Origin: a bacterium
GTDB lineage: Bacteria > SZUA-182 > DTGQ01
Direction of reading: 5' to 3'
Assembly: GCA_023512255.1 (NCBI GenBank)
Contig: JAILZY010000007.1
Location: 1-64,000, forward strand
Length of the DNA stretch: 64,000 bases
The translations under genes were made by a program, and so were the position numbers. The notes under the pieces were generated by a model. The model had not been told where the DNA came from. It ran no database searches and saw only the letters and a list, made by a program, of their open reading frames with translations. Shown piece by piece: positions 10,324 through 28,600 of the stretch; position 1 is the stretch's first letter; the number at the start of each line of letters is the position of its first letter.

Positions 10324-10881
10324 TTGAAAGGGTTAGTGAGGAAGAAAAAGCGGGATGAATTTTGGGTAGCGGTGATTAGCCTTTTTCTATTCTGGATGGC
10401 TATCTCCTCCTGCCAGGCCAAGATCTGGTCAAAATTAGGCCTGATAAACCTTATCGAACATAGTATCGTCGGATTAATTATTTCTCTGCTCATTGTTTCT
10501 CTGTACCCAAAGCCTATTTTCAGCTCCGAGCAAATTGCCACCTATCGTAACTTTGGAGTGATCGTACGCTTACTCCTATACATAAGGCGACTGATGATCG
10601 AGATAGTTATGGCTGGAATTGATGTTGCCAGAAGGGTATTGCGCAGGCAGCTTATGATCTCGCCGGGCATTGTCCAGATCGAAACCCCTCTTAACAGCGA
10701 GGGGGAGATTACCCTGAACGCCAATTCGATTACTCTTACCCCTGGCACGATCACCATTGAGGTTAAAAAAACAGAAAAAGGGAGTATTTTTTGGGTTCAT
10801 TGCATCAGTCAGGAAGCGGTAAAGGAAATAATGGAGAGCGGAGGATTTGTAGACCAAATCCGCGCTCTTTATCGGAGGTAG
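10324..10881 (+). CDS. mrpE: Mrp/MBH antiporter subunit E
   Basis: The 185-residue protein has N-terminal membrane helices and the family-defining motif NSITLTPGTITIEV before a soluble tail (IFWVHCISQEA). MrpE (MbhA in archaeal membrane-bound hydrogenase) is a small structural subunit of Mrp cation/proton antiporter modules. It opens a tightly packed plus-strand cluster in the order mbhA to mbhH. The start is uncertain: TTG at 10324 and GTG at 10336 are both possible. Confidence 0.88.
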   Translation: MKGLVRKKKRDEFWVAVISLFLFWMAISSCQAKIWSKLGLINLIEHSIVGLIISLLIVSLYPKPIFSSEQIATYRNFGVIVRLLLYIRRLMIEIVMAGIDVARRVLRRQLMISPGIVQIETPLNSEGEITLNANSITLTPGTITIEVKKTEKGSIFWVHCISQEAVKEIMESGGFVDQIRALYRR

Positions 10882-10888
10882 CAGGTTT

Positions 10889-11161
10889 ATGGGGCTTGAT
10901 GTTTTGTTAAAATTAGCTATTTTGGTTCTCTCCTGCACAATATTTTTCTGTCTCTACCGGGCAATTCTGGGGCCAACCACAGCCGATCGGATTATTGGCA
11001 TCAACGTGGTAGGGACTAAGGCGGTGGTGGCTTTTGTTTTTCTGGCAGCCATCTTTCAGAAAAGCTCTTATCTGGATATCGCCATGCTCTATGCCATGCT
11101 AATTTATGTAACTACCATTGCTTTTATCAAATACCTAGAGCACCGGCAGTTGGGTGAGTAA
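10889..11161 (+). CDS. mrpF: Mrp/MBH antiporter subunit F
   Basis: This 90-residue protein has three membrane helices and the conserved GPTTADRIIGINVVGTK loop of MrpF/MbhB. GGAGG lies before the ATG. It begins 7 bases after mrpE and its TAA overlaps the next ATG by one base. Small hydrophobic scaffold subunit of the antiporter module. Confidence 0.93.
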   Translation: MGLDVLLKLAILVLSCTIFFCLYRAILGPTTADRIIGINVVGTKAVVAFVFLAAIFQKSSYLDIAMLYAMLIYVTTIAFIKYLEHRQLGE

Positions 11162-11520
11162 TGATCTACGTGAGAATAGCGCTACAGATTTTAGCCGCAG
11201 TGTTTATTATCGCTGGAGTATTTTTCTTCATCGCGGCCACAGTCGGCATTATCCGCATGCCCGACCCTTACAATCGGGCCCATGCAGCCGGCAAAGGAGA
11301 CAGCCCCGGATTTCTCCTTTCATTAACCGGTGTGTGGCTCTACTGGCTGACCATAAATCCAGCGGAGAGTTTTAAGATTTTGCTAATTATTCTCTTTATG
11401 CTGTTTGCCAATCCGATAGCGGTTCATGCTATTTTGCGGTTCTGCTATCGGACGGGTGTGCCGTGGGTGAAGGAAACCACAGTGCATCTTTTGAAGGATC
11501 AAAGGGAAGAGAAGGATTAG
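11161..11520 (+). CDS. mrpG: Mrp/MBH antiporter subunit G
   Basis: The 119-residue protein has three helices and the conserved block GIIRMPDPYNRAHAAGKGDS typical of MrpG/MbhC. Its start overlaps the mrpF stop (TAATG). Structural subunit of the membrane module. Confidence 0.93.
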   Translation: MIYVRIALQILAAVFIIAGVFFFIAATVGIIRMPDPYNRAHAAGKGDSPGFLLSLTGVWLYWLTINPAESFKILLIILFMLFANPIAVHAILRFCYRTGVPWVKETTVHLLKDQREEKD

Positions 11521-11540
11521 GGAAAAAGGGAAGATAAGAT

Positions 11541-11789
11541 ATGGACATGGTGATCCTGGCGCATGTAATTATCCTGATATTTTTGGTGGCCACAGCCCTT
11601 GCGGCCATCATATCCAGGGACCTTTTGGAGTCGGTTATTATTTACAGTGCCTACAGCTTTACCATTACGGTAACCTACAGCATATTGAGGGTTGTGGATG
11701 TAGCCATGACCGAGGCGGCCGTCGGAGCAGGGATTTCCAGCGTCCTGTTTGTAGCCGCTCTCTGCAAAACAAAAAGGAGGGAGGATTAA
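11541..11789 (+). CDS. DUF4040 subunit (MbhD-like; C-terminal part of MrpA)
   Basis: The 82-residue, three-helix protein carries the DUF4040 pattern (RDLLESVIIYSAYSF ... VDVAMTEAAVGAGISSVLF). In Bacillus MrpA this is fused behind the NuoL-like domain; in Pyrococcus MBH it is the separate MbhD. The free-standing form places this cluster with the MBH type. It is related to NuoJ and helps shape a transmembrane ion path. Confidence 0.9.
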   Translation: MDMVILAHVIILIFLVATALAAIISRDLLESVIIYSAYSFTITVTYSILRVVDVAMTEAAVGAGISSVLFVAALCKTKRRED

Positions 11790-11790
11790 G

Positions 11791-12117
11791 TTGAAGAAAT
11801 TTCTCCCGGCTATCCTGTTCACGGTTTTTGCCTTCAGCATGATTATAGTCATCATGGGGTTTAACCCGATTGGAGATCCGCATCTTCCAGGGTATGCAGA
11901 TTTTGTCTCCTCCCCCATAAGCAAACATCAGGTGGTTAAGCAGGCCGATTCCATAGCCCTGCACTACAACCGCCATGCCTGCTCGGACACAGGGGCGATG
12001 GATATTATTGCGGCCATTATTTTTGATTACCGGGGGTATGATACCCTGTTTGAAACCACAGTCTTATTCACTGCCCTGATCGGGGTGCTTTCCATTATCG
12101 GGGTAAAAGAGAGCTGA
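11791..12117 (+). CDS. MbhE-like antiporter subunit
   Basis: The 108-residue protein starts at TTG one base after the previous stop, which suggests coupling. It has an N-terminal helix, a soluble loop with HYNRHACSDTGAMDIIAAIIFDYRGYDTLFE and a C-terminal helix. The DTLFET motif marks the MbhE/MrpA-C-terminal family. In fused MrpA proteins this segment follows DUF4040. Confidence 0.88.
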   Translation: MKKFLPAILFTVFAFSMIIVIMGFNPIGDPHLPGYADFVSSPISKHQVVKQADSIALHYNRHACSDTGAMDIIAAIIFDYRGYDTLFETTVLFTALIGVLSIIGVKES

Positions 12118-12119
12118 TT

Positions 12120-12668
12120 GTGCTAATGAGCGGCCAAAAGGATAAGAAGGAATCGGAATATTGGTCAGGCATTGTCATTCAACTGGTCAGCCGGATCATG
12201 TGTCCGTTCATTATCATGTTTGGAATTTACCTGATAACGCACGGGCACCTGACTCCAGGGGGGGGATTTCAGGGCGGAGTGACTATCGCGGCCTCATTCA
12301 TCCTGTTTGCTCTAGCCTTCAATAAAAAGGAGGGCCGGCAGATGGTCCCATCATTTTGGTTAAAATGTGGAGCAAGTGGGGGAATACTTATTTATATCGG
12401 GGTGGGGTTGGCCGGTATACTCCTTGGGTATAATTTTCTAGCTAACAAAGTGGCTGGCATCTTCCCTCGCGGCCTGCCGGGTGAGCTTCTTAGCTCAGGC
12501 AGCATTTTCTGGATCAATATCGGTGTTGGCCTGGCTGTGGCCAGTATATTCACTGATTTATTTTTCTCGTTTCTGGAAGAGCGCCCGGATGAAACCTGTC
12601 TGAAGACTAAGCAGGAGCTGCCATACCGGAGGAGATGGTCGGATGTTGATAGAAACGGTCTTAAGTAG
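12120..12668 (+). CDS. mrpB: Mrp/MBH antiporter subunit B
   Basis: The 182-residue protein has four helices and the hallmark YLITHGHLTPGGGFQGGV of MrpB/MbhF. GTG at 12120 is spaced well from AGAGAG; ATG at 12126 is an alternative. The 3' end overlaps mrpC by 26 bases. The C-terminal basic tail (about 20 residues) is dispensable-looking and variable in the family. Confidence 0.92.
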   Translation: MLMSGQKDKKESEYWSGIVIQLVSRIMCPFIIMFGIYLITHGHLTPGGGFQGGVTIAASFILFALAFNKKEGRQMVPSFWLKCGASGGILIYIGVGLAGILLGYNFLANKVAGIFPRGLPGELLSSGSIFWINIGVGLAVASIFTDLFFSFLEERPDETCLKTKQELPYRRRWSDVDRNGLK

Positions 12669-13047
12669 AATCGACTACATTGTTACTGTCATTTTGTTTT
12701 GTATCGGGCTCTATGCCTTGATTATAAAACCCAATTTGATTAAGAAGCTGATCGGGATGAACGTGATTGAAACCTCAGTTTACCTGTTTTTCATCGCTTC
12801 GGCAGATGTGCGGCTTGGGCCTGCCAGTTGGCAGTGGGCAGGGCCGTCGGAAATCGCTGATGCCGCGCAAGCGGCTCGCGTGGCAGCCGGGCAGGTGGCT
12901 TTGGTCAATCCGATACCATCGGCCCTCATCTTAACGGCCATTGTGGTTAGCATCAGTGTTACGGCTATCTCTCTGGCCTTATCTATAAAGATCTATGAAC
13001 ATTACGGCACATTGGATACTCGAAAGATCATGAGACTCAAAGGGTAG
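12643..13047 (+). CDS. mrpC: Mrp/MBH antiporter subunit C (NuoK-like)
   Basis: The 134-residue protein has three helices with GMNVIETSVYLFF and NPIPSALILTAIVVSISVTAISLAL, diagnostic of MrpC/MbhG/NuoK. A hydrophilic alanine-rich insert (SEIADAAQAARVAAGQ) sits between helices 2 and 3. Overlap with mrpB indicates co-translation. NuoK-like subunits contribute acidic residues to ion translocation. Confidence 0.93.
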   Translation: MLIETVLSRIDYIVTVILFCIGLYALIIKPNLIKKLIGMNVIETSVYLFFIASADVRLGPASWQWAGPSEIADAAQAARVAAGQVALVNPIPSALILTAIVVSISVTAISLALSIKIYEHYGTLDTRKIMRLKG

Positions 13048-13236
13048 TTATTATTCTTTAAAAATAAAAACATAATCTATAATCCTTGCAGGGCGCGACA
13101 TCAAGGCTAAGAATGCTGTGCGGCTCAGAAGGTGGCGGATGATCATGACAGCGATCCTACGGTGGATATCATTAGAGCGCGAAAGATAGCCAGGTATAAG
13201 CAACTTGTTGATCTAAAGCTCAAAAGAGGCAGACTT

Positions 13237-14802
13237 ATGGATTCATCTATTGGCATCGGTGCATCTCATTTACAAATCTTGATACCGGTTATTATGATAG
13301 CCAGCGCACTCCTGGTTCCCCTAATCTCTAGGGGCAACCCGAGGTATCGCCTCCCGCTGGTCCTTCTGGTTACTGCAGCTGCCTTTCTTGGTTCTGTAGA
13401 CATCCTGGTAAAGGTTATCCTCTCCCCTACTGGATATCTCGAATATATGGCCGGGTATCAATGGGGGGGAAAGAGTCTTCTTCGGACAGGCCAGCCGATC
13501 GGTATTGTCCTTCGCACGGATCTTCTCGGAGCCATCCTGCTGCTTTTGATCAACGGCATTGGTTTTCTAGTGACATTGTATTCCTGCAGATCCGCTCACC
13601 ATGAGGTGCCAGAGGGAAAGCAGCCCTATTATTATACCCTGCTGCTGCTAATGCTGGCCGGCATGTCTGGGATCGCTATAGCCGGCGATTGCTTCAATTT
13701 CTACGTCTTTTTTGAAATTGCTTCTATCAGCTCCTATACTCTAGTCTCTATTAGCGGACGACCGGAATCGCTTGAAGCTACGTTCAAATATATTCTTACC
13801 GGTGCCTTGAGTTCGATCCTCATTGTTTTCGGCATCGGGCTTCTGTTCAATGCCACTGGAACACTCAATATGTATTATGCCTCCCAGCAGATTGCTAAAA
13901 TTGTCAGCTCCCATCCCGAATCGCCCCTCTTTCCCTACCGATACCTGATTTATGCCTCTCTGGGACTATTCATCATGGGGTTTAGCATCAAGGCTGCCTT
14001 TTTCCCCAGCCATGCCTGGTTAGCTGACGCCCATCCGGCAGCCCCATCTTCGATCAGTGCTCTTTTATCAGGTCTGGTGGTCAAAACAACTGGAATTTTC
14101 CTGCTCATTCGCTTCGTATTCACGGTTTTCGGGATTCATAAAGGCTACCTAGGAGAGGTTCTCTCTGTGCTCTTTTTGATTATCAGCATCATCACCATTA
14201 TAAGCGGCTCGCTTTTTGCTATAGTCCAGACTCAATTGAAAAGAATGCTGGCCTACTCAACCATTGCCCAAATGGGCTACATTCTTTTCGGTGTAGCCCT
14301 GGTCACTCCATACGGGCTGGCTGGATCTATTCTCCATATTGTTAATCATGCCATAGTCAAGAGCTTGATGTTTCTGTGCGCTGGAATAATCCTGCACAAA
14401 ACAGACATCAGGGATATAACTGATATGGGAAGATTGGGATATAGAATGCCGGCCACTATGGCCTGCTTCACCATCGGAGCCTGTTCGCTGGTTGGGGTTC
14501 CTCCCATGTGCGGCTTTATGAGCAAATGGGTTTTGGCTACTTCAGCTATTCAGGCGGGCATGCCCTATCTGGTTATTATCCTTTTGATCAGCAGCTTGCT
14601 GAATGCGGTTTATTATTTCCGGGTAGTGGCGATCAGCTATTTTGGAAATCCGAAGATAGAGATAGATACCGTCGATGAAGCACCGAAGACAATGTTGGTG
14701 CCGGTCTGCATATTAGCCGTATTAGTCATTATCCTGGGAGTGCTGGTAAAATATCCTTATCATGCTGCCGCGTTGCCCGCGGCTAGGTTGCTGTTAAGGT
14801 AA
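13237..14802 (+). CDS. mrpD: Mrp/MBH antiporter subunit D (NuoN/NuoM-like), first copy
   Basis: A 521-residue polytopic proton/cation-translocating subunit. It keeps the key charged residues: TM5 glutamate in FYVFFEIASISSYTLVS, TM7 lysine in FSIKAAFFPSHAWLADAHP and TM8 lysine in SGLVVKTTGIF. The distal half-channel region is VGVPPMCGFMSKW. The start at 13237 has GAGG eight bases upstream and matches the family. The frame is open upstream to a GTG at 13132, adding about 35 charged residues, which is less likely. It corresponds to MbhH and closes the canonical eight-gene module. Confidence 0.92.
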   Translation: MDSSIGIGASHLQILIPVIMIASALLVPLISRGNPRYRLPLVLLVTAAAFLGSVDILVKVILSPTGYLEYMAGYQWGGKSLLRTGQPIGIVLRTDLLGAILLLLINGIGFLVTLYSCRSAHHEVPEGKQPYYYTLLLLMLAGMSGIAIAGDCFNFYVFFEIASISSYTLVSISGRPESLEATFKYILTGALSSILIVFGIGLLFNATGTLNMYYASQQIAKIVSSHPESPLFPYRYLIYASLGLFIMGFSIKAAFFPSHAWLADAHPAAPSSISALLSGLVVKTTGIFLLIRFVFTVFGIHKGYLGEVLSVLFLIISIITIISGSLFAIVQTQLKRMLAYSTIAQMGYILFGVALVTPYGLAGSILHIVNHAIVKSLMFLCAGIILHKTDIRDITDMGRLGYRMPATMACFTIGACSLVGVPPMCGFMSKWVLATSAIQAGMPYLVIILLISSLLNAVYYFRVVAISYFGNPKIEIDTVDEAPKTMLVPVCILAVLVIILGVLVKYPYHAAALPAARLLLR

Positions 14803-14893
14803 TTTGTTTTAAGGCAAATAAAAAGGTATAAGAGGTGCTCCCCGGCTTTAGTTGAGTATATTTTTCGGACAGCTCGCTAAGGAGAAAACGATT

Positions 14894-16471
14894 ATGATTA
14901 AAAGCTATCTTCCTTTATTAGTAGTTATGTTCCCTCTTATTGCCATGATCTTTCGCCCCTTTGTCCAGAAGCATCGGCTTTATCATTATACGGCTATTGT
15001 CAGTGGCGTTACCCTGCTCCTCATTCTGGCTATGTATCCGGCAATTGTCGACGGGAATATCCTCGATCTGACCCTGGATACGGGGCTGGGATTTAATTTC
15101 GTTTTCCGGGCTGATCTGCTTGGTCTTTTCGTCGGCCTCATCTCGGTAGTGCTATGGACTTTGTCTTCAATTTATAGCATTGAATATATGCGTCACTCTC
15201 ACGCTCATGCCCGGTTTAACATCTTCTCTCTCCTTTCTCTCAGCGGAATGATGGGGGTAGTCTTTACTGGAAATCTTTTCACTCTTTATATATTTTTTGA
15301 ACTTTTAAGTGTGGCCTCGGCTATTCTTGTCTTCCATGAAGAAACCCCCGAGGCTATGAAAGCAGGCTTTAAGTATCTATTTCTGGGAATCGCCGGAGGA
15401 CTCGTTCTGCTTTTTTCCATTATCATGACCTACTATCTTACCGGAACAGGAGATCTTACCCTAATCGGCCTCGGATTGCAGGGGAGCAAGTGGCTGCCAT
15501 GGATCTTCTGGGGCTATATCATCGGCTTCGGGGTCAAGGCCGGCATGTTCCCTCTGCACATCTGGCTTCCTTCAGCTCACCCGGTAGCTCCCTCAGGAGC
15601 CAGTGCGCTTCTCTCAGGCGTTATGATTAAGGCCGGAGCATATGGAATTTTTAAAACCATCTACCATATCATTGGCTATCAGGACATGGTCAAAAATCAC
15701 ATGGGTCTTATGCTGCCGATGCTGATCATCAGCCTCATAACCATCTTTCTTGGGTCAGCCTGCGCCATCACCCAGACGGAGATCAAAAAGATGCTGGCCT
15801 ACTCCAGTATTTCACAGATCGGCTATATCATCATGGGATTTTGCCTCCTGGCCCCGCGGGGCATCGTTGGGGGCATAATGCACATTTTTGCCCATGCCCT
15901 GATGAAAGGGACCCTCTTTATGTGCGCTGGGGCATTTATCTATAAAACAGGTCTGCGCAACCTCGAAGACCTTAAAGGTATTGGAAGGAGAATGCCTTGG
16001 GTTACCTTGGCTTTCAGCATCTGCGCCTTCTCAATGATCGGGCTGCCACCCTTTGTCGGTTTTATCAGTAAGTGGTTCTTAGCCCTGGGAGCGCTGGATA
16101 TGATGAAAATGGGGAATTACTGGCCAGGATTTGGAATAATCGCTCTGCTGACCCTGCTGCTCAGCAGTCTACTGAATTTGGTCTACTATGGCCCGGTGGT
16201 CATCGGTGCCTGGATGCAGCCAAGAGTCGAGGCACAGACGCAGGATGATGAGACTGTGGCCAGCGATCATAATGGCGAAGCAAACCATCAGGCTCAGCCG
16301 CCTATGGTGGCCTTAGCTGATCAGGGAGCAAAGGAGCACAATAGTGAAGATCCCAATTGGGTCATGCTGACCCCAATTTTAATTTTGACTATGGCTGTTT
16401 TGGTCTTTGGCATCGCGCCAGGGATTCCACTTAATATTGCCTGGCAGATCTGCCATATATTTTTCCCCTAA
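14894..16471 (+). CDS. NuoM/MrpD-like antiporter subunit, second copy
   Basis: The 525-residue polytopic protein has TM5 glutamate (LYIFFELLSVAS), TM7 lysine (GFGVKAGMFPLHIWLPSAHP), TM8 lysine (SGVMIKAGAYG) and IGLPPFVGFISKWF. A GGAG site before 14894 fixes the start, rather than the in-frame TTG at 14852. Between the last two helices lies a hydrophilic insert of about 45 residues rich in Asp, Glu, His and Gln. It is closely similar to the 20177 gene, so the pair probably arose by duplication. Confidence 0.92.
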   Translation: MIKSYLPLLVVMFPLIAMIFRPFVQKHRLYHYTAIVSGVTLLLILAMYPAIVDGNILDLTLDTGLGFNFVFRADLLGLFVGLISVVLWTLSSIYSIEYMRHSHAHARFNIFSLLSLSGMMGVVFTGNLFTLYIFFELLSVASAILVFHEETPEAMKAGFKYLFLGIAGGLVLLFSIIMTYYLTGTGDLTLIGLGLQGSKWLPWIFWGYIIGFGVKAGMFPLHIWLPSAHPVAPSGASALLSGVMIKAGAYGIFKTIYHIIGYQDMVKNHMGLMLPMLIISLITIFLGSACAITQTEIKKMLAYSSISQIGYIIMGFCLLAPRGIVGGIMHIFAHALMKGTLFMCAGAFIYKTGLRNLEDLKGIGRRMPWVTLAFSICAFSMIGLPPFVGFISKWFLALGALDMMKMGNYWPGFGIIALLTLLLSSLLNLVYYGPVVIGAWMQPRVEAQTQDDETVASDHNGEANHQAQPPMVALADQGAKEHNSEDPNWVMLTPILILTMAVLVFGIAPGIPLNIAWQICHIFFP

Positions 16472-16497
16472 AAAGCAGGGTGTGGGGAGTGAAGAAG

Positions 16498-17166: not shown

Positions 17167-18173
17167 ATTCCACCGAGCAGACCAAGATTCTAATTGTCGA
17201 TGATGATCCGGATACGCGGGATATTATCAGGTTAAGTTTAAATTCCCGCGCCTACCGCATATCAGAGGCACGAACAGGCGTTGAGGCCTTGGAGAAGGTA
17301 AATGCCTATGATCCTGACATTGTGGTGCTTGATATAATGCTGCCGGAAAAATCAGGCATGGAAGTGTGCAAGGCTATCAAGGAAAGTACTAAAACTGCTC
17401 ATGTTCCAGTAATCATGTTGACCGCCAAGCAGACTATCCACGATAAGATAGAGGGGCTGAATATCGGCGCCGATGACTACCTGGTCAAACCCTTTGATCC
17501 GCTAGAGCTTGAGGCCAGGATCAAGGCCTTGCTCCGAAAAATGAGGCGAGACCTCTATGCCAATCCCCTAACCCACCTGCCGGGCAATGTGCCCATCGAG
17601 AAGGAAATTCAGCGAGCCATTGATGAGCAAAGAAGCTTTGCCGCTTTATTTATTGATCTTGATAATTTTAAAGTCTACAACGATAACTATGGTTATGCAG
17701 CTGGAAATAGAATTATCAAATTCTGCGCTCAAACAATCCTGGACAGCGTGAAGCGCTTTGGGAATGCTCAAGACTTTGTCGGCCATATAGGCGGAGATGA
17801 TTTTGTGGTCCTGACCACGCCGGATAAAGCGGATCAGATCTGTCAGGAAATTATCAGGATCTTTGACAGTCTCATCCCGATTCAATACAACGAGGAGGAT
17901 GTAACCCGAGGCTACCTAATCAGCGAGGATCGGCGGGGAGAGGTGAAAAAGTTTCCGCTGATGACTATTTCAATTGCGGTCATTACCAATGAAAATAATC
18001 AGTTTATCCATCACTTGCAGGTCGCTGAAAAGGCTGCGGAATTAAAACGGCATATTAAAAAGATCGAGGGCAGCAAATACCAGAAAGACCGACGAAAGAG
18101 CCCGACACTGGCCCTCAAAAATGACACGGCTGACCCTTCGCTCTCGGCGCCACCAGCAATGGATGGGCAGTAA
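17163..18173 (+). CDS. Response regulator with GGDEF-type output domain
   Basis: 336 residues. An intact receiver domain (LIVDDDPD, VVLDIMLP, DDYLVKPFDP) covers about residues 8-125. It is followed by a diguanylate-cyclase-fold domain with FAALFIDLDNFKVYND and GGDDF in place of GGDEF. The change is conservative; whether it makes c-di-GMP is open. The C-terminus is a disordered-looking tail. It starts inside the preceding membrane-protein gene (ATGA) and is followed by the hybrid kinase. It lies between two antiporter subunit genes, so it may tie signalling to ion transport. Confidence 0.88.
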   Translation: MNSTEQTKILIVDDDPDTRDIIRLSLNSRAYRISEARTGVEALEKVNAYDPDIVVLDIMLPEKSGMEVCKAIKESTKTAHVPVIMLTAKQTIHDKIEGLNIGADDYLVKPFDPLELEARIKALLRKMRRDLYANPLTHLPGNVPIEKEIQRAIDEQRSFAALFIDLDNFKVYNDNYGYAAGNRIIKFCAQTILDSVKRFGNAQDFVGHIGGDDFVVLTTPDKADQICQEIIRIFDSLIPIQYNEEDVTRGYLISEDRRGEVKKFPLMTISIAVITNENNQFIHHLQVAEKAAELKRHIKKIEGSKYQKDRRKSPTLALKNDTADPSLSAPPAMDGQ

Positions 18174-18192
18174 GTTGCGTATGGATGGGCAG
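18159..18192 (+). repeat. Post-stop duplication of a gene end
   Basis: The last codons of the preceding gene (ATGGATGGGCAG, 18159-18170) recur exactly at 18181-18192, just beyond its TAA. One case of a pattern seen at many gene ends in this window. Confidence 0.75.
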
Positions 18193-18235
18193 AGTAGCGT
18201 GTTGTTTAGGCCTCCAGCTTATTGCGGCTGCTTTC

Positions 18236-18315
18236 AGCAGCATGTGGTAGTAGTTTTTTTCTGAAGTGTTTAGTGAGCAGCATGTGGTAGTAGTTTTTTT
18301 CTGAAGTGTTTAGTG
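18236..18315 (+). repeat. Perfect 40-bp tandem duplication
   Basis: Two identical 40-bp units (18236-18275 and 18276-18315), beginning AGCAGCATGTGGTAGTAG, fill the gap before the hybrid kinase gene. A partial third unit follows (GTAGTTTTTTGAGG). The identity implies a recent duplication. Confidence 0.9.
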
Positions 18316-18343
18316 GTAGTTTTTTGAGGTATTTTCAGGATTT

Positions 18344-20101
18344 ATGAATCTTTCGATTACTCAGAAGCTGGCGATCGGATTTTTGACCATTGCCTTCTCT
18401 ACGGCTGCGGTCGGCACCTTGGCTTATGTTTCCCTGCTGCGGATCGGCTCTGAGCTTCAGGTGGTTGTGGCCGCGCCTTTAAATACTGCATCGGCCAGGG
18501 ACAGAGAAATTGTTCAACGAGTCAGGCGGTTAATTAGGCAATCGGCCCAAGATAAGATCATTCTTTTCGCTGGCATGATCCTGAGCTTTATCATTGCCTG
18601 GTGGGGATGGCTATTTTTATCTCGCCAGGTGGCCGATCCGATTATTTCTTTAACCCAAAAGGCTGATCTGATCAGCCAGCAGAGCGGCAAATTACATGAG
18701 ACAGTCGCCACCAGCGGCCAGGATGAGACCAAAAAGCTAGCCAGGGTCTTCAACCAGATGAGCGCCTCCTTGCAGGAGCAGCAGATGGAGATCGAGAGGA
18801 TTAATCGGGAACTAGAGAGGCGAGATCAGCTATTGGGTGAAGCCAATGCCAAACTGGAGCGACTGAATGCCATGAAATCGGATTTTCTGTCAATTCTCTC
18901 TCATGAGCTACGCACGCCGCTCACGGTAATCAAAGGGTATCTGTCGCTAATGAAAAATCAGCGACTTGGGCCAATCAATGAACAACAACTAAAAGGGCTG
19001 ACCATAGCTGATGAGCGAGCGGATCATCTAAATAGCCTGATCAGTGACCTGCTCGATCTGTCCCGGATCGAATTGAATAAGTATGAAATCCGGCAGGAGG
19101 TTTGGGATTTGGCCAAAATGGCCGAGGCTGCTGTCGATTCTATGCGGCCATTATTTGAAAAAAAGGGGCTGCGATTCAAAACCCATATTCCGGCTGAGCT
19201 TCCGCTGGTTTATGCGGATAAGCAAAAAGTTTCTCAGGTGCTCACCAACCTGTTGAGTAATGCTATTAAGTTTACGCCAGCCGGAGGAGAGGTTATCCTA
19301 GAAGCACTCCCCAGCGTTGAGGAGCGAAGCGGTGAAGAGAGCCGGCCAGAAGGCGATGATTTTGTGCAGATTAATGTCAAAGATACTGGAATTGGTCTGG
19401 CAGAGGAGGAAATTCAGAAGATTTTTGATAAGTTTTATCAAGTAGATGACTCGGTAACTCGAGAACATAGCGGCAGCGGTCTTGGGCTTTGCATTGCCAG
19501 AAATATCGTCGAGTTACATCATGGCCGGATGTGGGTCAAGAGCCGAAAAGGAGAGGGAAGCACCTTTTCCTTCACCCTACCCAAAGCTGACTCTAGCTTA
19601 ATGACTGAGGCGAAGGCCGCGCCCTCGGCCAAAGAAGGAAAGCCGCTGTTTAGCTTGTCAGCAGCCGACAAGAAGGTCAGCTCAGATAGCCGAAAGAGGC
19701 AGGAAAGCGGCGGCGAGGATATGGCTGAGCGCAGCATTCTGCTTGTGGATAATAATCCTCTCATCCAGCAGTTAATCATAACCTGCCTCAGTGCTTTGCC
19801 CTGCAAGATCATAACCGCTAGCGACGGGATCGAGGCCCTAGAGAGGGTGTTTCAAACCCCTGTGGATTTAATTGTGCTCGATATCAATCTCCCAAGGCTC
19901 AGCGGCTATGATCTGTGCCAGATTATCAAAACAAATGAGAAAACCAAACACATTCCAGTTGTCATTCTCTCGGCCTCTGCCCAGCGATCTGAGATCGAAC
20001 GCGGCTTTCAGATGGGAGCAAATGACTATATCACCCACCCCTTCGTACCGGAGGAGGTAGTAAAAAGAATTCACAACTTGATGATAAGCAAGACAGCCTG
20101 A
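18344..20101 (+). CDS. Hybrid sensor histidine kinase with degenerate C-terminal receiver
   Basis: 585 residues. Two helices (about 8-32 and 72-92) enclose a short periplasmic loop. A HAMP-like linker and coiled coil follow, then HisKA (SHELRTPL, phospho-acceptor His187) and HATPase_c (N-box NLLSNAIKFT, DTGIGL, GSGLGL). A receiver domain begins near residue 464. The receiver keeps the phospho-acceptor aspartate (IVLDINLPRLSG), but its acidic pocket reads VDNN instead of VDDD and the conserved Lys is His (DYITHPF), so phosphorylation chemistry is probably impaired. It is likely the partner of the adjacent receiver-GGDEF protein. The sensed signal is unknown; the periplasmic loop is only about 40 residues. 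Confidence 0.9.
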   Translation: MNLSITQKLAIGFLTIAFSTAAVGTLAYVSLLRIGSELQVVVAAPLNTASARDREIVQRVRRLIRQSAQDKIILFAGMILSFIIAWWGWLFLSRQVADPIISLTQKADLISQQSGKLHETVATSGQDETKKLARVFNQMSASLQEQQMEIERINRELERRDQLLGEANAKLERLNAMKSDFLSILSHELRTPLTVIKGYLSLMKNQRLGPINEQQLKGLTIADERADHLNSLISDLLDLSRIELNKYEIRQEVWDLAKMAEAAVDSMRPLFEKKGLRFKTHIPAELPLVYADKQKVSQVLTNLLSNAIKFTPAGGEVILEALPSVEERSGEESRPEGDDFVQINVKDTGIGLAEEEIQKIFDKFYQVDDSVTREHSGSGLGLCIARNIVELHHGRMWVKSRKGEGSTFSFTLPKADSSLMTEAKAAPSAKEGKPLFSLSAADKKVSSDSRKRQESGGEDMAERSILLVDNNPLIQQLIITCLSALPCKIITASDGIEALERVFQTPVDLIVLDINLPRLSGYDLCQIIKTNEKTKHIPVVILSASAQRSEIERGFQMGANDYITHPFVPEEVVKRIHNLMISKTA

Positions 20102-20137: not shown

Positions 20138-20186
20138 GAGACCTATGAACCAGAAAATAGATAGCAAGAGAGACCTATGAACCAGA
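20138..20186 (+). repeat. Duplicated start region creating an 11-codon leader ORF
   Basis: A 17-bp direct repeat (GAGACCTATGAACCAGA at 20138-20154 and 20170-20186) duplicates the start region of the next gene 32 bases upstream. The upstream ATG at 20145 opens an 11-codon frame whose TGA overlaps the real ATG at 20177 (ATGA), an arrangement suited to translational coupling. Confidence 0.7.
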
Positions 20187-21691
20187 TTATCAGCTTCCTA
20201 CCTTTGTTAGCCTTATCCATTCCTCTGCTCGGAATCATAGTCATCCTTTGGGTCAGCGAGCGATTTCCGCAAAGTGTCAATCTCCTTACCGCGCTCAGCA
20301 CTCTTCTCACCGCTTTTGCGGTAGCCACCATGTATCCAACCATCAGAGCCGGTGGGAGCCTTACCAAGAGCTTTGTCCTATTTACGGCTCCTCAGGTGGG
20401 ATTTATCCCGCTGGTTTTCTCCTTCAGGGTCGATGCGCTGGGGTTTTTCGTTGGGCTGATCGCGACTGTAGTTTGGATGCTGTCAAGCTTTTTTGCCATT
20501 GAATTCATGCGGAAAAAACATGCTCAGATACGCTATGATATTTTTTCACTTCTTACCCTGATCGGTATGCTCGGGGTTGTCTTTGCCGCAGATTTATTTA
20601 CCCTGTATGTTTTCTTTGAGCTTTTAAGTGTTGCCTCCCTGGTGTTGGTAATTCATGAGCAGACTCAGGAGGCCATGCGGGGTGGGGTGATCTACATTTT
20701 CATGGGAATCTGCGGAGGTCTTATTCTCCTTATGTCAATCCTGCTGACCTGTTCCATAAGCGGCTCGACCGATATTGTGGCCGCAGGAGCTGGCCTCAAA
20801 GAAAGCAGGCTGCTGCCGCTGATTTTTTGGGGCTATATTCTTGGCTTTGGAGTCAAGGCTGGCATCTTCCCCCTGCACTTTTGGATGCCTTCGGCCTATC
20901 CGCAAACTCCAACCTGCGCCGTAGCTCTCTCCTCCGGGGTGATGATCAAGGCCGGAGCCTATGGGATCATCAGAACCATCTACAGCATCATCGGTCTTGA
21001 TGCCCTGCGGGGAAGGTGGCTAGTGCCTATCCTGCTAGTTGCAGCTCTGGTATCCATTTTTGTTGGCTCTGCAGCCGCCATCAACCAAAAGGATATCAAA
21101 AAGCTACTTGGCTACTCCAGTGTATCGCAGATCGGCTATATAATCCTTGGTCTGACCCTGCTCTCTCCCCTGGGGCTGACTGCCGGGATTGTCCATATTT
21201 TCAATCACGCGATTATTAAAGCTACCCTATTTTTGTGCGCTGGTGCGATTTTTCACCAAAGCGGCAAAAGGTATCTTGACGAGCTCAAGGGGATTGGAAA
21301 GAGTATGCCCCTGATAACCGCCTGCTTCACTATGGCCGCTCTGTCAATGATTGGGCTTCCACCCTTCAATGGCTTTATCAGCAAGTGGTTTCTGGCTGCC
21401 GGAGCACTGGATGCGGTCAAGATAGGCTCATATCATCTAGGGGTAGGCATTCTGGCTGTTGGCACTCTTATTGTCAGCAGCTTTATGAACCTGATCTACT
21501 ACGGCCCGATTGTCTATAACGCCTGGTTTGGAACCCAAACTTATCCTTCGAAAGATGAGGCGGGGCAAGATCCCAAACCGGTGATGATGATTCCAGTTTT
21601 ACTGCTGGCCCTTGGAACAGTGATTTTCGGAATTTTCCCTGGTTTTCCGCTGAGCATTGCCTGGCGGATCAGTCAATTTTATTTCCACTAG
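20177..21691 (+). CDS. NuoM/MrpD-like antiporter subunit, third copy
   Basis: The 504-residue polytopic protein has TM5 glutamate (LYVFFELLSVASLVL), TM7 lysine (GFGVKAGIFPLHFWMPSAYP), TM8 lysine (SGVMIKAGAYGIIRTIY) and IGLPPFNGFISKWFL. The usual SAHP after TM7 reads SAYP. It is very close to the 14894 gene over its whole length, so the two are probable paralogues from duplication within the cluster. An 11-codon leader frame overlaps its start. Confidence 0.92.
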   Translation: MNQIISFLPLLALSIPLLGIIVILWVSERFPQSVNLLTALSTLLTAFAVATMYPTIRAGGSLTKSFVLFTAPQVGFIPLVFSFRVDALGFFVGLIATVVWMLSSFFAIEFMRKKHAQIRYDIFSLLTLIGMLGVVFAADLFTLYVFFELLSVASLVLVIHEQTQEAMRGGVIYIFMGICGGLILLMSILLTCSISGSTDIVAAGAGLKESRLLPLIFWGYILGFGVKAGIFPLHFWMPSAYPQTPTCAVALSSGVMIKAGAYGIIRTIYSIIGLDALRGRWLVPILLVAALVSIFVGSAAAINQKDIKKLLGYSSVSQIGYIILGLTLLSPLGLTAGIVHIFNHAIIKATLFLCAGAIFHQSGKRYLDELKGIGKSMPLITACFTMAALSMIGLPPFNGFISKWFLAAGALDAVKIGSYHLGVGILAVGTLIVSSFMNLIYYGPIVYNAWFGTQTYPSKDEAGQDPKPVMMIPVLLLALGTVIFGIFPGFPLSIAWRISQFYFH

Positions 21692-21755: not shown

Positions 21756-24644
21756 ATGAACAAGACAGCAGCAGCAAGAGCAGCATTGGCCGCCTTTGGC
21801 CTAATTTTTATATTTTCCCTCTGGAGCTTTTTCCCTTTTTCTCATCCGACAGCAGTGTCTGAAATTTGGGCATCCTCGACTTCCTCTTTGCTAGAAGAGA
21901 GTGCCCACCATGCGGCGAGCGAGGCTTATCGAAAAATTGACCCTAAAGCATCTATCTTTTCCCCACTGCCGGTAGTGATTATTCTGATTCCTCTGCTTGG
22001 CGCCCTGATGCTCCTTTGGCTTTGCCGCAAGGACAAACAGGGGCAAGGGGGGATCATCGTAACCTTGAGCAGCGGTCTTGCCCTAGCCACATCCTTCCTA
22101 ATGTATTCGCCAGTCATACAGGGTAAGTGGACTGCCGCTACTTTTGGGGGAGCAGCAGCTTATCGTCAGGGGATTTTCTATACAATTCCCTTTTTGCCTG
22201 CTTTTTCACTCAATCTGACCTTCAGGGTTGATCCGGCTGCCTTGATGTTAGTCATCTTGAGCTGTCTGGTGTGGTTTTGGGTAGCTATTTTTTCGCAAGG
22301 ATATTTAGCCATTGAAGGACAAAGGCTGCGGTATAATGTGGCCAACCTCTGTGCTCTAAGTGCAACTGTGGGGACCTTTTTGGCCGGAGACCTTTTTACC
22401 CTGTACATATTCTATGAATTGATCCTCATTTTTCTCTACCTGATGGTTATTCACCGTGAGGATGAGGAGGCTTTACAGTCGGCCAAAATTTATCTCTACT
22501 TTGGGGTATTTTGTGGCCTTTTGCTATTGTTTGGGATTTTTCTCTTCTCCTATTTTACTGGTACGGTGGATATTCAGAGTGCAGCCGAAGCCCTTGGCCG
22601 GATGAGATATCCAGCCCTCAAGTATTGTCTAGCTGCACTCTTTCTGTTAGGATTTGGCGGCAAGGCCGGCATATTTCTTGAGCATATCTGGATGCCATCC
22701 TCCTACGGTTCTGCTCCTTGTCTCACGGCCGCCCTCTCTTCAGGGATCATGATCGAGGTGGGGGCTTACGGGATATTTCGAACCGTTAACATGATCTTTG
22801 CCCCTTCAAGCCACCTGGGGGAAGGCTCCTCGGCCTGGATAACCTCGGCTCAATTAGGCTATGTGCTAATCTTTGTGGGAATTGTAACTATGCTACTTGG
22901 GGCGATCAATGCCCTTTTCTCCACCCAGGCGCTGCGGCTTTTGGCCTACTCCAGTGTCAGCCAAATGGGCTACATTGTCATGGGCATCGGCTGTGCCGCC
23001 TATATGGGAAGCAGCGGGGCCATGGGGCTTGCGGGTGCGCTATACCACATCATCAACCATGCCCTGTTCAAGGTGGGATTGTTCCTGAGTATCGGTGCGG
23101 TCTACTTTCACACCAGAGAGCTTGACATTCGAAAGCTTGGTGGATTATGGCGGGATTTGCCGATCGCCAGCCTGACATTTTTGATCAGCGCCTTGGCAAT
23201 TGCCGGTTTTCCTCCGCTGAACGGTTTTGCCAGCAAAACCATGCTCCACCATGCCATCCTGGAGGCATATCAGCACTCGGTCCACTTCTCCCCCTCGCAT
23301 CTGCCTGATTTTTGGCTTCGGATAGCTGAAATCGTGTTCATTATTACTGCCGGCGGAACATTTGCCTACAATATGAAACTTTTCAGCATGGTCTTTCTGG
23401 GATCGAAAAAAGAGGGAGAAAAAAAGCCTACTTCCTCATCGCCCCTTAGTATGAATATCGCTCTGCTCCTTTTTGCAGCCGGAATTGTGCTTTTGGGATT
23501 TTTCCCCAACTGGCTGCTAGAAAATTTCATCGGCCCTATGTTGCCCTACTTTGGCTTTGACTCCCACTCTCATGCCTACCATATGATTTATAATCCCAAG
23601 GCCGCTAGCTTTTTACGCTCCGCCTTGCCGCTGTGGTATGATCCTGCTCAACGAAGTCTTCTGGCCAGCAGCCAGGTGATTCACAACCTTTCATCGGGCA
23701 GCACCGCCATTTTGCTTGGAGGCCTGGTTTTCCTTATCTTCCTGGCCTTTGGATTTTCGGAAAAGCAGCTCTCTCCTGCCTGGGCACTGACGACTTACTA
23801 CCAAAAAGTGTTTTTTGGCTTTCACTCTCTGTGCCATCTGATCTACACCACAGTCGTGGCCGCAGCAGAAAAGACCATTTCCGTACTCATGGTCTATCTG
23901 TGGATTCCAGAGATCAAATTGGAATTGATTGTCCCGAAATCACCTGCACAGGCCAAACATGGAATGTTTCGGGTAATTTCCAAGGTGGACGAGCAGTATG
24001 CCCATAGCATAGATCAGACGGTACGAGCTAAGGGAATGTTTGGCCATATTTCAAAAATAGATCAGATGTATGATCATATTTTTGATAAGGCCAAGGATAT
24101 TGTAGCTGAAGATGGGATATTTGACCGAATTTCTGAGGTTGAGGAGAAATTTTCAACCTCCATTGATCGGGCAGCAGAAAGCCGAGGCCTCTTTAGCCGG
24201 GCCACCAAAGCCGATGGCCAATTGAGCGGGGCGTATGACCAGGTTATCTTCAGCAGATTCTTCTGGGGGATCCTGGCCAGACGTGATGAATTCAAGGCCG
24301 GCCTGTGGAAGTATTTCAATCTGATCGAGAACTGGTATGACCGAATCGTCGAGCGTACCCTGTTTGATATCCTCGGCTCTGAAGATCTATCTAAAATTCA
24401 ATTAGCAGGCGAAGACTTTGCCAGCTCATGGTTTTTGCGTCTTTGCAAAAGGGCAAGCGAAATCCATACCGGAGATATCAGCCACTATATCTCTTGGATC
24501 GCTATCGCCTTGACCATTATCATCGGCACTTTAGTTGGCTTTCTCTACATTAAGACATTCTTTGCCATGATCGTGGCTTTATCAACCATCATCACCTTTT
24601 TCGGTGTGCTGGCTGCGGTGATCACATTTTTTTTCAAACGATAG
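21756..24644 (+). CDS. Long NuoL/N-like antiporter subunit with a novel C-terminal repeat extension
   Basis: 962 residues, nearly twice a normal subunit. After an N-terminal helix, about residues 65-640 form a NuoL/M/N-type channel domain with TM5 glutamate (LYIFYELILIFLYL) and TM7 lysine (GFGGKAGIFLEHIWMPSS). The TM8 lysine is replaced by glutamate (SGIMIEVGAYG). About 290 residues follow that normal family members lack. They include four tandem repeats near residues 735, 759, 786 and 810 (pattern xGhFxxISKVDExYxxxID), an amphipathic stretch and two terminal helices (ISWIAIALTIIIGTLVGFLY; FFAMIVALSTIITFFGVL). ATG at 21756 is used because the frame upstream lies inside the preceding gene. The extension may bind a partner or form a lateral strut; that is inference. 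Confidence 0.85.
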   Translation: MNKTAAARAALAAFGLIFIFSLWSFFPFSHPTAVSEIWASSTSSLLEESAHHAASEAYRKIDPKASIFSPLPVVIILIPLLGALMLLWLCRKDKQGQGGIIVTLSSGLALATSFLMYSPVIQGKWTAATFGGAAAYRQGIFYTIPFLPAFSLNLTFRVDPAALMLVILSCLVWFWVAIFSQGYLAIEGQRLRYNVANLCALSATVGTFLAGDLFTLYIFYELILIFLYLMVIHREDEEALQSAKIYLYFGVFCGLLLLFGIFLFSYFTGTVDIQSAAEALGRMRYPALKYCLAALFLLGFGGKAGIFLEHIWMPSSYGSAPCLTAALSSGIMIEVGAYGIFRTVNMIFAPSSHLGEGSSAWITSAQLGYVLIFVGIVTMLLGAINALFSTQALRLLAYSSVSQMGYIVMGIGCAAYMGSSGAMGLAGALYHIINHALFKVGLFLSIGAVYFHTRELDIRKLGGLWRDLPIASLTFLISALAIAGFPPLNGFASKTMLHHAILEAYQHSVHFSPSHLPDFWLRIAEIVFIITAGGTFAYNMKLFSMVFLGSKKEGEKKPTSSSPLSMNIALLLFAAGIVLLGFFPNWLLENFIGPMLPYFGFDSHSHAYHMIYNPKAASFLRSALPLWYDPAQRSLLASSQVIHNLSSGSTAILLGGLVFLIFLAFGFSEKQLSPAWALTTYYQKVFFGFHSLCHLIYTTVVAAAEKTISVLMVYLWIPEIKLELIVPKSPAQAKHGMFRVISKVDEQYAHSIDQTVRAKGMFGHISKIDQMYDHIFDKAKDIVAEDGIFDRISEVEEKFSTSIDRAAESRGLFSRATKADGQLSGAYDQVIFSRFFWGILARRDEFKAGLWKYFNLIENWYDRIVERTLFDILGSEDLSKIQLAGEDFASSWFLRLCKRASEIHTGDISHYISWIAIALTIIIGTLVGFLYIKTFFAMIVALSTIITFFGVLAAVITFFFKR

Positions 24645-24839
24645 GGAAATAAGGCAGATGGTCCCCAGGTAAAAAACAATAGTTGATAAGGTAAATGAGA
24701 AACTCCCCTCTATGGTAATCCGGTCAAGATCGTACTAGGATTGGATATAAATGGGGAGCATCTGGAAATAAGGCAGGTATTTTTTGATTTTTCACAAGGA
24801 ACTTTTTGCTTTTTACTCTTTTTGAAGGACTAGAAGTCG

Positions 24840-25811
24840 ATGCAGTCGAAAGAAAAAGAAAATCTTGGTAGGGCATTGCAAATTATTTTGGCGAGGAGCT
24901 TTACTTATTTAAGCTTATTGGTTATTATAATCTTCATTATCTATTTCGTGAGAAGAAAGCCGTTTCAGGACTCAATTCCGACAGGGGTACGGGACATAGT
25001 AGCCATCGTCGATGGCTACTCGGAATATAAAGCACATATCCAAGGAGTGCGGGAGGGGCTTTTGTTCAAGGGCATTCACACTATCTTCTATGAGGAATCA
25101 AAGCTTGGAGAGATTAAGGAGAATCCTGTCTATGTCATCGGAACAGAGAAGGTGAAACGGGTTCTTGAAAAGCTGCCCGGACGCACCATCATCGGCTATG
25201 CTCAGTTTCAGGAAAAGCCCGCTGACAATTATACGGGAGTTTTTTCAGGATTTGACTGGGCCGAGGGCATTAAGTTCTACAGGCGAATTTTACCAGGGCT
25301 TAAGAGAGTTGGGGTTGTCTATTCGGAAACTATCCCTTGGTCCAGAGAACAGTTTGAGGCCCTGCAAAGCTTTGTCAGCAGCCAGCCAGAACTTGAGATA
25401 GAGATAACTCCTTTGCCGATCCCTAAAAACGGCAGAGAACTTCAAGAAAAATTGGATTCTCTTCTCAACACAGTAGATGCCCTCCTGGGGGTTGTTCAGG
25501 ACAAAAATATTGAGGCCGCCTTGCCGATCATCATCTCAAGCTGCCTCAATCACAAACGCCCTTTCATAGGCGGAGGAAAGACAGGAGCGCAAATGGGAGC
25601 CTTGGCTGCCCTGGAATATGATCAAAAGCGACTCGGCAGGCAGGTAGCAGACACGATTATTTCTCAGATTATCAGGCAGCATAAAACGCCTGCCCAGATT
25701 CCCATTCTTATTCCTCAACCGCAGATCTTTATCAATCTTTCTACTTCCTATAAATTGGGCATCCAGCTTCCCAAAGATATTAAAGATCAAGCCGCGGAGA
25801 AATACTCCTAG
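24840..25811 (+). CDS. Membrane-anchored ABC substrate-binding-like protein
   Basis: The 323-residue protein has one N-terminal helix (LSLLVIIIFIIYFVRR) and then a periplasmic-binding fold of the TrpX/YtrF-like ABC_sub_bind type (EGIKFYRRILPGLKRVGVVY, a central VDALLGVVQDKN, a C-terminal GRQVADTIISQII). No permease or ATPase genes lie next to it, so it may work as a sensor or scaffold rather than in transport. GAAGGA lies upstream. The gap before it contains a 15-bp direct repeat (GGAAATAAGGCAG, near 24647 and 24762). The coiled-coil gene follows after 119 bases. Confidence 0.75.
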   Translation: MQSKEKENLGRALQIILARSFTYLSLLVIIIFIIYFVRRKPFQDSIPTGVRDIVAIVDGYSEYKAHIQGVREGLLFKGIHTIFYEESKLGEIKENPVYVIGTEKVKRVLEKLPGRTIIGYAQFQEKPADNYTGVFSGFDWAEGIKFYRRILPGLKRVGVVYSETIPWSREQFEALQSFVSSQPELEIEITPLPIPKNGRELQEKLDSLLNTVDALLGVVQDKNIEAALPIIISSCLNHKRPFIGGGKTGAQMGALAALEYDQKRLGRQVADTIISQIIRQHKTPAQIPILIPQPQIFINLSTSYKLGIQLPKDIKDQAAEKYS

Positions 25812-25890
25812 GGGGGAAGATATTAGGCAATTTGGATAAGAGCTCTCTTTAAAAAAACCAAACTTGAAGCACTATAGTACTCCTAGGGGG
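25803..25890 (+). repeat. Post-stop duplication of a gene end
   Basis: TACTCCTAGGGGG at 25803-25815 (last two codons and stop of the preceding gene) recurs at 25878-25890. Confidence 0.65.
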
Positions 25891-25930
25891 AGAGAGTAGG
25901 AGATGAAGTTCACCATTTTGGGAGAATGAA

Positions 25931-28600
25931 ATGCAGAAAGATAGTATCACAACGAGCCAATCTGTGTCTCGAGGCGATAGCAAAGACTCAATCCTAGCTG
26001 AAAATATGGCTATTTTGGGTCATATGCTAGAGGAGTCCAGGAAAGAGAGAGAAGGGCTTGAGGCCTTGCTGAATCAGATCAGGATGCAGATAGCCAGCCT
26101 GTGTGAAAACAGCGAGATGATTCTTCGGGTGGAAAAGCGAGTCGAGACCTTGCAGTTTTTGTCTCAGTCAACAGAAAAGAAAATTACCGAGGTTCTTCGA
26201 TTTCGCGACCAAATCGATGAGGTGAATCGAAAACTTGACAGTTTTACCACCCTGGCCCTTGAGCTATCTGAAAAATTCGATGAGCTAAGCGGCCAGGTTG
26301 ATGCCTTTAACCAGGTTAAGGATGGTGTCAGCCAATGCAAAGCGGCGGTTGAGCAGATAAGCCAAACGGTTCAGGTTTTGCAGACTGAAGCCGCTGATCT
26401 GGAAGGGAAAGTGGCTCAAATCTCTGATCGTAAGATAGATATTGACCTGGCAGTGGAAGAGGCCAATCAGTTTTCCGCCCTGACCAAAAAGCTGCGCAGC
26501 GAATTCCAGGGGATAGAGCAGGAGCGGACAGATGCCCTGTCCAAAATGAAGACCTTTGCCGAGCAGATGGCCAAATACGAATCGCTGGCTTTAGATATGC
26601 GGCAGAAGGCTGAAGAGCTAGATCGAGATCGAAAGCTCTATGAGGCTACCAAGCAAAAGCTAGATAGTCTTAACTCCCTGGCCGAATACATCAAAACCAA
26701 AATGAACACCCTATCACAGCAGCGGCTGATCGTGGAAAAGGCCAATGAGGAAGCTGGACGGCTAAATGTCCTGTTCTGGGATATGGAAGCCAAGATCAAC
26801 AAATTGGCTGAAGAAAACAAATTGATCAAAAAAACCGAGAAAAATATCTGGCGTCTGGAATCCATGTTCAATGAGGCCGAGCTCAAGACCAAGCAGGTTG
26901 CCGAGGCCAAGGAATTTCTGACTACCGTTACCGAGCGGATCGAAGACCTGCAGAAGCTGTCAGCAGAAATCTCAAACAAAACCAGGGAGTTGAATGAGAC
27001 GCGGGCAGTCATGAATAACCTGAGCGGCAGGATCGACTATCTGCATTCTCGGCTTGAGGACGCCGAGCGCAAAGGAGACGAGATCCTTACCCTTCAGACC
27101 GATATTCAGCGGGTCAATGAGCAGATTCAGCAGGTAAATCAAGAGCTGCAAGACCTGCAAAAGGAATTTGAAGAGGTGCTCGATCAGAAGGAAGTTATTA
27201 AAGAGGTGAAGACCCAGTTGCTGGAGATAGACCTTCTGGCTCATAATTTGCAATCCGAGGCTGAGAAGATTCAAGAGAAGGGAAAACTGATCGAGCGGAT
27301 CGAAAGCAAAGTGGAGGCTCTGACCTCTAGCCTCATGGATATTGAGGATCGAATGATTACCTTAGAAACCAAAAGATCGGAGTTAGGACAGCTTGAATCT
27401 CAGATCATAGATATCAAAAAATTGGCCGAAGATCTTTCCAAAACAGAAGATGAGATCATTGAGAGGATCGACTTTATCGAAGATGCCAGGCAGCAGATGG
27501 AAAAGCTGATTGCTCTGTCTGGTGAGCTGAACGAAAAGATGGAGCGGGTGGAACGCCGACAGGCCTTGGTCCAGAATCTGGAAAATCGGATCTTGAGACT
27601 TAGCCAGTTAAGTAGCGAGTTAGAAACCCGCATCAGGACGGTTCTTCAGAATAAATCTGAAGTTGAAAGGGTTGAGGATGGGCTGAATGCCTTGAAAGTC
27701 CTTATCGAGGATATTGAGGTCAGAAGCAGTGAACTGCAGGCAGACAAAAAACAGATTCAGGAACAGGCTGCACAACTGGCCGAGCTCAAGACCCAGGCTG
27801 ATGACATCCGGCAGATAATGAATCAAATTAACCGAAATAAAGATGCGGTTCAGCGAATTCATATTGAAATGGTCGAAAGTGAGAACAAAATCTCTAGCCT
27901 CTTTGGAGCCATTGATCACAAAATCAATGATCTTGAACACTGGCGCAGCCAGGCTCAAGGAATAGCGGAAACTTACCGAGCTCAATTCCGTGATCTCCTG
28001 CGGCAGATGGAAGAAGGGGTAGCTCGGGTTTTAAATGAGATGATTGATATTGACAAGATAGAAAATAAGTTGCAAAATCTCTCTCAACTCCATCGGGATA
28101 TCGAACGCAAAATCGATGCTCTCTCGGCTCGCAAATCGGCTCTCTCGGAATTGGAAAGAAAGATCAGCGGTCTTGAAGAGCTATCTCAGGGGATTGACGA
28201 GAATCTGGCCAAAATAGCAGGTGGCAAAGATGTGATCGAAAGAACCAACCGCGATATTCAGGAGGTGCGTCTCCTGGCGCAGGACATTCGAGCCAGAATG
28301 CAAAATCTGCTTTCGGAAAGTGAAAAGGTGGATGAGGTCGGCGCTAGGTTGACAAGTCTTCACGATTTAATTGCTGATACTCACGAGAAGATGGGAGCCA
28401 TTATGAAGAACATCCAGTTGATCGACGAGGCCGACTCAAGGATGAGAAATCTCGATTTGATGGCGGAAGATCTCAAGGTAAAATTGGACACCCTAGCCCA
28501 GCAGCAATCTTTGGTTGAGAGTGCCAATCAGCAGGTCGCTCAGCTGCAATTTTTATTGGGAGAGGCTGAAGTAAAGGCACGAAAATTGCAAGAATCATAA
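25931..28600 (+). CDS. Large coiled-coil protein of unknown function
   Basis: 889 residues, almost entirely heptad-patterned, rich in Glu, Lys, Gln, Leu and Ile, with no cysteine-rich, ATPase or membrane segment visible. Internal repeats are clear: KMNTLSQQRLIVEKANEE near residue 257 resembles KLDTLAQQQSLVESANQQ at the C-terminus, so it grew by duplication. It resembles SMC or myosin-rod coils only in composition; no head domains are present. It lies 119 bases after the substrate-binding-like gene, so the two may be one unit. A cytoskeletal or scaffold role is possible, not shown. Confidence 0.8.
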   Translation: MQKDSITTSQSVSRGDSKDSILAENMAILGHMLEESRKEREGLEALLNQIRMQIASLCENSEMILRVEKRVETLQFLSQSTEKKITEVLRFRDQIDEVNRKLDSFTTLALELSEKFDELSGQVDAFNQVKDGVSQCKAAVEQISQTVQVLQTEAADLEGKVAQISDRKIDIDLAVEEANQFSALTKKLRSEFQGIEQERTDALSKMKTFAEQMAKYESLALDMRQKAEELDRDRKLYEATKQKLDSLNSLAEYIKTKMNTLSQQRLIVEKANEEAGRLNVLFWDMEAKINKLAEENKLIKKTEKNIWRLESMFNEAELKTKQVAEAKEFLTTVTERIEDLQKLSAEISNKTRELNETRAVMNNLSGRIDYLHSRLEDAERKGDEILTLQTDIQRVNEQIQQVNQELQDLQKEFEEVLDQKEVIKEVKTQLLEIDLLAHNLQSEAEKIQEKGKLIERIESKVEALTSSLMDIEDRMITLETKRSELGQLESQIIDIKKLAEDLSKTEDEIIERIDFIEDARQQMEKLIALSGELNEKMERVERRQALVQNLENRILRLSQLSSELETRIRTVLQNKSEVERVEDGLNALKVLIEDIEVRSSELQADKKQIQEQAAQLAELKTQADDIRQIMNQINRNKDAVQRIHIEMVESENKISSLFGAIDHKINDLEHWRSQAQGIAETYRAQFRDLLRQMEEGVARVLNEMIDIDKIENKLQNLSQLHRDIERKIDALSARKSALSELERKISGLEELSQGIDENLAKIAGGKDVIERTNRDIQEVRLLAQDIRARMQNLLSESEKVDEVGARLTSLHDLIADTHEKMGAIMKNIQLIDEADSRMRNLDLMAEDLKVKLDTLAQQQSLVESANQQVAQLQFLLGEAEVKARKLQES

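Follow-up and report, generated by a model that had tools for sequence, protein, structure and literature searches.

A repeat-lengthened lateral helix in a NuoL/MrpA-type subunit and its predicted role as a brace for a row of antiporter-like subunits

The NuoL-like antiporter subunit encoded on the forward strand at 21756..24644 of the window, the whole 64,000-nucleotide stretch of bacterial DNA analysed here, has a lateral helix (HL) that was probably lengthened by tandem amphipathic helical units of 24-27 residues, and this segment is predicted to form a cytoplasmic brace for the row of antiporter-like subunits. The role of the HL as piston, clamp or passive brace has long been disputed in complex I research. 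With its relatives from at least three lineages, the window protein provides a natural series of HL lengths in steps of about 25 residues at a nearly constant number of pump genes, which breaks the simple rule for HL length and supplies natural variants for testing the role of the HL.

The repeat carrier is a protein of 962 aa with a single channel domain in a Pfam scan (PF00361, Proton_antipo_M, residues 210-506, E=8.6e-49), and it keeps E221, K303, H431, H435 and K439, corresponding to the TM5 Glu, the TM7 Lys, the TM11 His pair and the TM12 Lys. TM15 (residues 650-668, 23703..23759), a hydropathy peak that aligns across relatives, is the final hydrophobic segment ahead of the HL region and leaves about 290 of the 962 residues beyond it, the length given in the original prediction. 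The two terminal membrane helices that it had proposed were also recovered, as hydrophobic segments within residues 908-962 (24477..24641) that comprise a TM16 equivalent, aligning with the canonical NuoL QTG..Y end, and an extra TM17, which is also present in L067, L068, L069, L072 and L074.

At the central TM8 position, residue 334 (22755-22757), the window protein carries Glu, as do the four orthologues closest to it (L067, L068, L069 and L070). This position, which we take to be the equivalent of NuoM K265, is Lys in 116 and Glu in 8 of 136 aligned antiporter-like sequences; the Lys is present in 32 of the 37 long members and is retained in the three remaining antiporter-like subunits of the operon. 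Glu334 is a variant residue that gives no reason to place the protein outside the NuoL/MrpA-type family, and it may alter proton conduction by this subunit.

When the protein is aligned with its orthologues and paralogues, the repeats fall between TM15 and the terminal helix IHTGDISHYISWIAIAL. This helix lines up with the canonical QTGFLQHYAIVIILG end seen in NuoL-like relatives, among them the repeat-free L076 (MQTGFLQHYAIVIILG), L028 and L026. In L103, from another genome, similar units are followed by the canonical VIDGFVN...LQTGRVSSYA end. Alignment and hydropathy together give the NuoL-type layout of TM15, lateral segment and TM16 with a NuoL-type end. Because the repeats sit between TM15 and this canonical end, the extension is, as judged from the alignment, a repeat-expanded HL of a NuoL/MrpA-type subunit and not a domain beyond NuoL. 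The extension had been thought to be additional to the NuoL lateral helix or to replace it, a view with which the placement of the repeats inside TM15-HL-TM16 is at odds. The pre-repeat part of the HL region (residues 672-733, 23769..23954, forward strand) is common to repeat-free relatives in an alignment with L076, L028 and L077, and homology between the window units and the HL part of repeat-free relatives was not detectable (hhalign 0.5%, score within controls). In Mrp, the HL runs from TMH15 to TMH16 and braces the antiporter-like subunits (PMC7419157). The HL is located at the cytoplasmic membrane surface (PMC9568556), and by homology the HL segment of the window protein would be cytoplasmic.

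The repeat block, on the same strand, consists of unit 1 (residues 736-759, 23961..24032), unit 2 (residues 760-786, 24033..24113), unit 3 (residues 787-810, 24114..24185) and unit 4 (residues 811-834, 24186..24257), which score 31.9, 32.9, 29.5 and 25.0 bits, respectively, with the unit HMM. The four predicted units of 24-27 residues are real, and their starts at 736, 760, 787 and 811 lie within 1-2 residues of the predicted positions. A degenerate fifth unit, GLWKYFNLIENWYDRIVERTLFDIL (residues 849-873, 24300..24374), aligns with a segment of L068 that scores 30.7 bits; in the window copy itself this unit is not matched by the unit HMM. The best ungapped 22-residue self-match scored 55 (BLOSUM62), a value reached in none of 500 shuffles (maximum 38), and a separate autocorrelation gave offsets of 24, 27 and 51 with scores that reached 81, where 60 shuffles gave no more than 36. 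As DNA, the units are 40-63% identical and the repeat is barely detectable; because this signal is almost gone, the duplications are old, and recent DNA slippage is ruled out as their origin.

A unit profile was built from the four window units and then run on the close orthologues. Among 20 aligned units of the window's class, positions 2, 3, 6, 9, 13 and 17 are hydrophobic in all 20 and positions 1, 4, 10 and 18 in none; position 1 is Gly in 13 of the 20 and positions 10 and 18 are mostly Asp, a regularity that is partly by construction because the units were collected with the profile. Helix-angle periodicity is weak in the window block (peak at 105 degrees, 55/1000 shuffles), and for the repeats of L033 and L058 the peak lies at 101 degrees per residue (0/1000 shuffles). 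The recurrent Gly, which is Gly-Pro in archaeal units, suggests breaks and not one straight helix. Neither the extension alone nor the repeat block gave a significant match in Pfam, NCBIfam or PDB, which agrees with the expectation that the repeats are new to family libraries, and no description of tandem repeats in the lateral-helix region was found in the open-access literature.

Matches to the tail were obtained in 8 of 60 relatives searched, all within the window's class, and in none of the more distant genomes sampled among those 60. In the Bacillota around L033, a relative of the L033 tail is present in 61 of 99 genomes searched, with 25-residue units (for example, FDGALNEAYEKSGKLARQLADKTAE) in the same place in NuoL-like proteins; this is also the position of 25-residue units (for example, FDKDVDEAYVKGAKEFLRLARPATK) in archaea around L058 (L092-L094). 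Comparison of the Bacillota and archaeal repeats gave an hhalign probability of 98.3% (controls at most 1.8%), and by this profile match the two sets of units are related. The relation between window and Bacillota units is suggestive (hhalign 57.8%, score 33 against at most 13 in controls). HL periods across relatives are mostly 24-26 residues, being 24-25 in Bacillota and archaea and 26 in the paralogue L073, and others of 29, 36-37 and 40 were found; all are near whole numbers of helical turns. The original interpretation therefore stands in part: the repeats are real, helix-like and outside the family libraries, but they are neither a separate extension nor peculiar to one genome, as HLs with a period of about 25 residues also occur in many Bacillota and several archaea. 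The L073 paralogue (3675-6479, the same as L029 5800-8604), which sits in a cluster of six antiporter-like genes, shows a duplication, 26 residues long, of the canonical HL motif FDKxVIDGxVN.

By its gene content, the operon is of the Mrp/Mbh type with four antiporter-like subunits. The window genes named in this paragraph are on the forward strand. Pfam matches identify the small subunits MnhE, MrpF, MnhG, MbhD-like, MbhE-like, MnhB and MnhC (10324..13047), which are followed by antiporter-like subunit 1 (MrpD-like; 13132..14802; PF00361 8.7e-66), subunit 2 (14852..16471; PF00361 5e-61), subunit 3 (20177..21691; PF00361 4.8e-58) and the repeat carrier. The MbhD-like and MbhE-like proteins are encoded by separate genes at 11541 and 11791, and the C-terminal fusion of MrpA type is absent. 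No redox subunits were detected with Pfam in 10324-20101 and 21756-28600, where only Mrp-type, regulatory and ABC_sub_bind genes were found. Downstream of the repeat carrier, 24840..25811 encodes an ABC_sub_bind protein (PF04392 2.9e-19) with one N-terminal hydrophobic helix; L069 has an ABC_sub_bind gene in the same place (PF04392 1.4e-19) and L067 an ORF of the same size. No transporter genes adjoin the ABC_sub_bind gene.

The stretch at 17163-20101, inside the operon and between antiporter-like genes 2 and 3, encodes a GGDEF-domain response regulator and a hybrid histidine kinase. The genus-mate L067 has ORFs similar in size to this pair, and in the order-mate L069 the gap holds only a 225-aa ORF. 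The preceding gene (16480-17166) encodes a membrane protein of 228 aa for which no curated family scored above cut-off, and the 225-aa ORF lies in its slot in L069.

In the proposed explanation, the HL of this NuoL/MrpA-type subunit grew as an amphipathic helical unit, 24-27 residues long, was duplicated in tandem. Each unit would form a helix of roughly 20 residues with a Gly kink at its end, and the chain of units would run along the cytoplasmic side of the operon's four antiporter-like subunits and brace the row, with TM16-17 anchoring the far end of the chain. The helical strut suggested in the original prediction remains the best guess, although it would not be extra to the lateral helix; the repeats are helix-like by sequence pattern. 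Work in E. coli indicated a structural rather than a piston role for the HL, and truncation of the HL was harmful (PMC3274701). Counting against the brace are the weak helix-angle periodicity of the window block, the recurrent Gly and a unit number that does not follow antiporter gene number. The segment is also too long for a simple four-subunit brace, as residues 672-907 would measure about 350 A as one helix (1.5 A per residue), far above the need of four subunits. Because of this excess, the surplus length would have to double back, project into the cytoplasm as a helical arm or extend to a neighbouring protomer.

The same excess could reflect an arm of helical repeats or coiled coil in the cytoplasm that, rather than following the membrane arm, docks onto another protein or links two protomers, a possible but rather unlikely arrangement. 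The Gly starting most units fits separate helices with turns, the HL of MBS participates in the dimer interface (PMC7684303), and the membrane-anchored ABC_sub_bind protein follows the NuoL-like gene in both the window and L069. However, the units keep a hydrophobic stripe of the kind that a helix lying against a membrane or a protein requires, and the genes next to the repeat carriers are different in other phyla (in L112, ApbE and others). It is improbable, if conceivable, that the repeated HL acts as a modular tie extending past its own complex, docking onto the antiporter-like subunits of neighbouring protomers and organising dimers or rows, with unit number setting its reach.

Constraint on the units bears on a further doubtful alternative to the brace, in which the HL region is a length-tolerant linker and duplication of its units matters little for function. 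Loci with the same number of genes can differ widely in copy number, and each close orthologue has 4-5 units by the unit profile, including the degenerate last one; in the genus-mate L067, one whole extra unit lies between those homologous to units 1 and 2. Several short HL insertions are tolerated by E. coli NuoL (PMC3274701). Between the window and L067, dN/dS is 0.21 for the units, 0.09 for the channel, 0.08 for the segment after the units and 0.05 for TM16-17, the units thus evolving about 2.3 times faster than the channel by this measure. These values therefore indicate that the units are under purifying selection, but of a looser kind than the rest of the protein. Such selection argues against a linker of this kind, as do the strict pattern over 20 units and the age and divergence of the units, which are not products of recent slippage. 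In addition, a 6-7 residue HL insertion at P552 of the E. coli protein reduced pumping to 22-27% (PMC3274701).

The length of the HL has been reported to match the number of subunits (PMC7684303; PMC9474812), and a 26-residue HL insertion goes with one extra pumping subunit (PMC9040806). Antiporter-like genes were counted from six-frame ORFs with an HMM made from the window's four subunits, and because the counts use local ORFs and a window-derived HMM, a subunit encoded elsewhere in the genome would escape them. HL length and gene number are loosely correlated over the 27 loci that had room on both sides (Spearman 0.58, p=0.0015, uncorrected for relatedness), but they are not proportional. 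HLs of 241-264 residues go with four antiporter-like genes in the window and its close orthologues, whereas five-gene clusters in the window's class have shorter HLs of 126-155 residues. The HL segment of the window protein is longer than the idea of length equalling subunit number predicts. The window combines four units with four antiporter-like genes, but L067 has five units with four genes, and the ranges are 4-5 units for 4 genes in the class, 4-7 for 2-3 in Bacillota and 3-6 for 4 in archaea. With 3-7 units found alongside 2-4 antiporter genes, a rule of one unit per subunit does not hold, and a strict ruler, in which each unit of about 25 residues (about 37 A of helix) spans one antiporter-like subunit and unit number equals the subunits bridged, is contradicted by the HL lengths and unit counts and very unlikely, barring subunits encoded elsewhere or fixed-ratio oligomerisation.

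The lengthened segment resembles the HL of NuoL/ND5, MrpA and MbsH' in belonging to the same family and in its place after TM15, its amphipathic character, its cytoplasmic location by homology and a closing membrane anchor that carries the canonical end motif of NuoL. It differs in its length of about 240 residues, against the usual tens, in its tandem units and in the presence of TM17 after TM16. An HL unit of about 26 residues between TM15 and TM16, together with extra antiporter-like subunits, is shared with the 2M complex I (Nitrospira NuoL) and with MrpD2 of the Ca. Manganitrophaceae Complex_I_3 (PMC9040806). In contrast to these complexes, the window has 4-5 units (up to seven elsewhere) in an Mrp/Mbh-type operon with no redox module, and, unlike in the 2M complex I, the unit number of the repeats here does not track the number of subunits. 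The operon encodes the same MnhE, MrpF, MnhG, MbhD-like, MbhE-like, MnhB, MnhC and MrpD-like proteins as Mrp (CPA3)/Mbh-type Na+/H+ antiporter modules, but with four antiporter-like subunits where those modules have two, and its NuoL-like subunit lacks the fused MbhD/MbhE-like domains of MrpA.

The region at 25931-28600 encodes an 889-aa protein of coiled-coil appearance over its full length, for which Pfam matches were sub-threshold only. At 7564-10027, overlapping ORFs on opposite strands both carry runs like GENPFEKGFSPS, which suggests a repeated DNA element that is read through in both directions.
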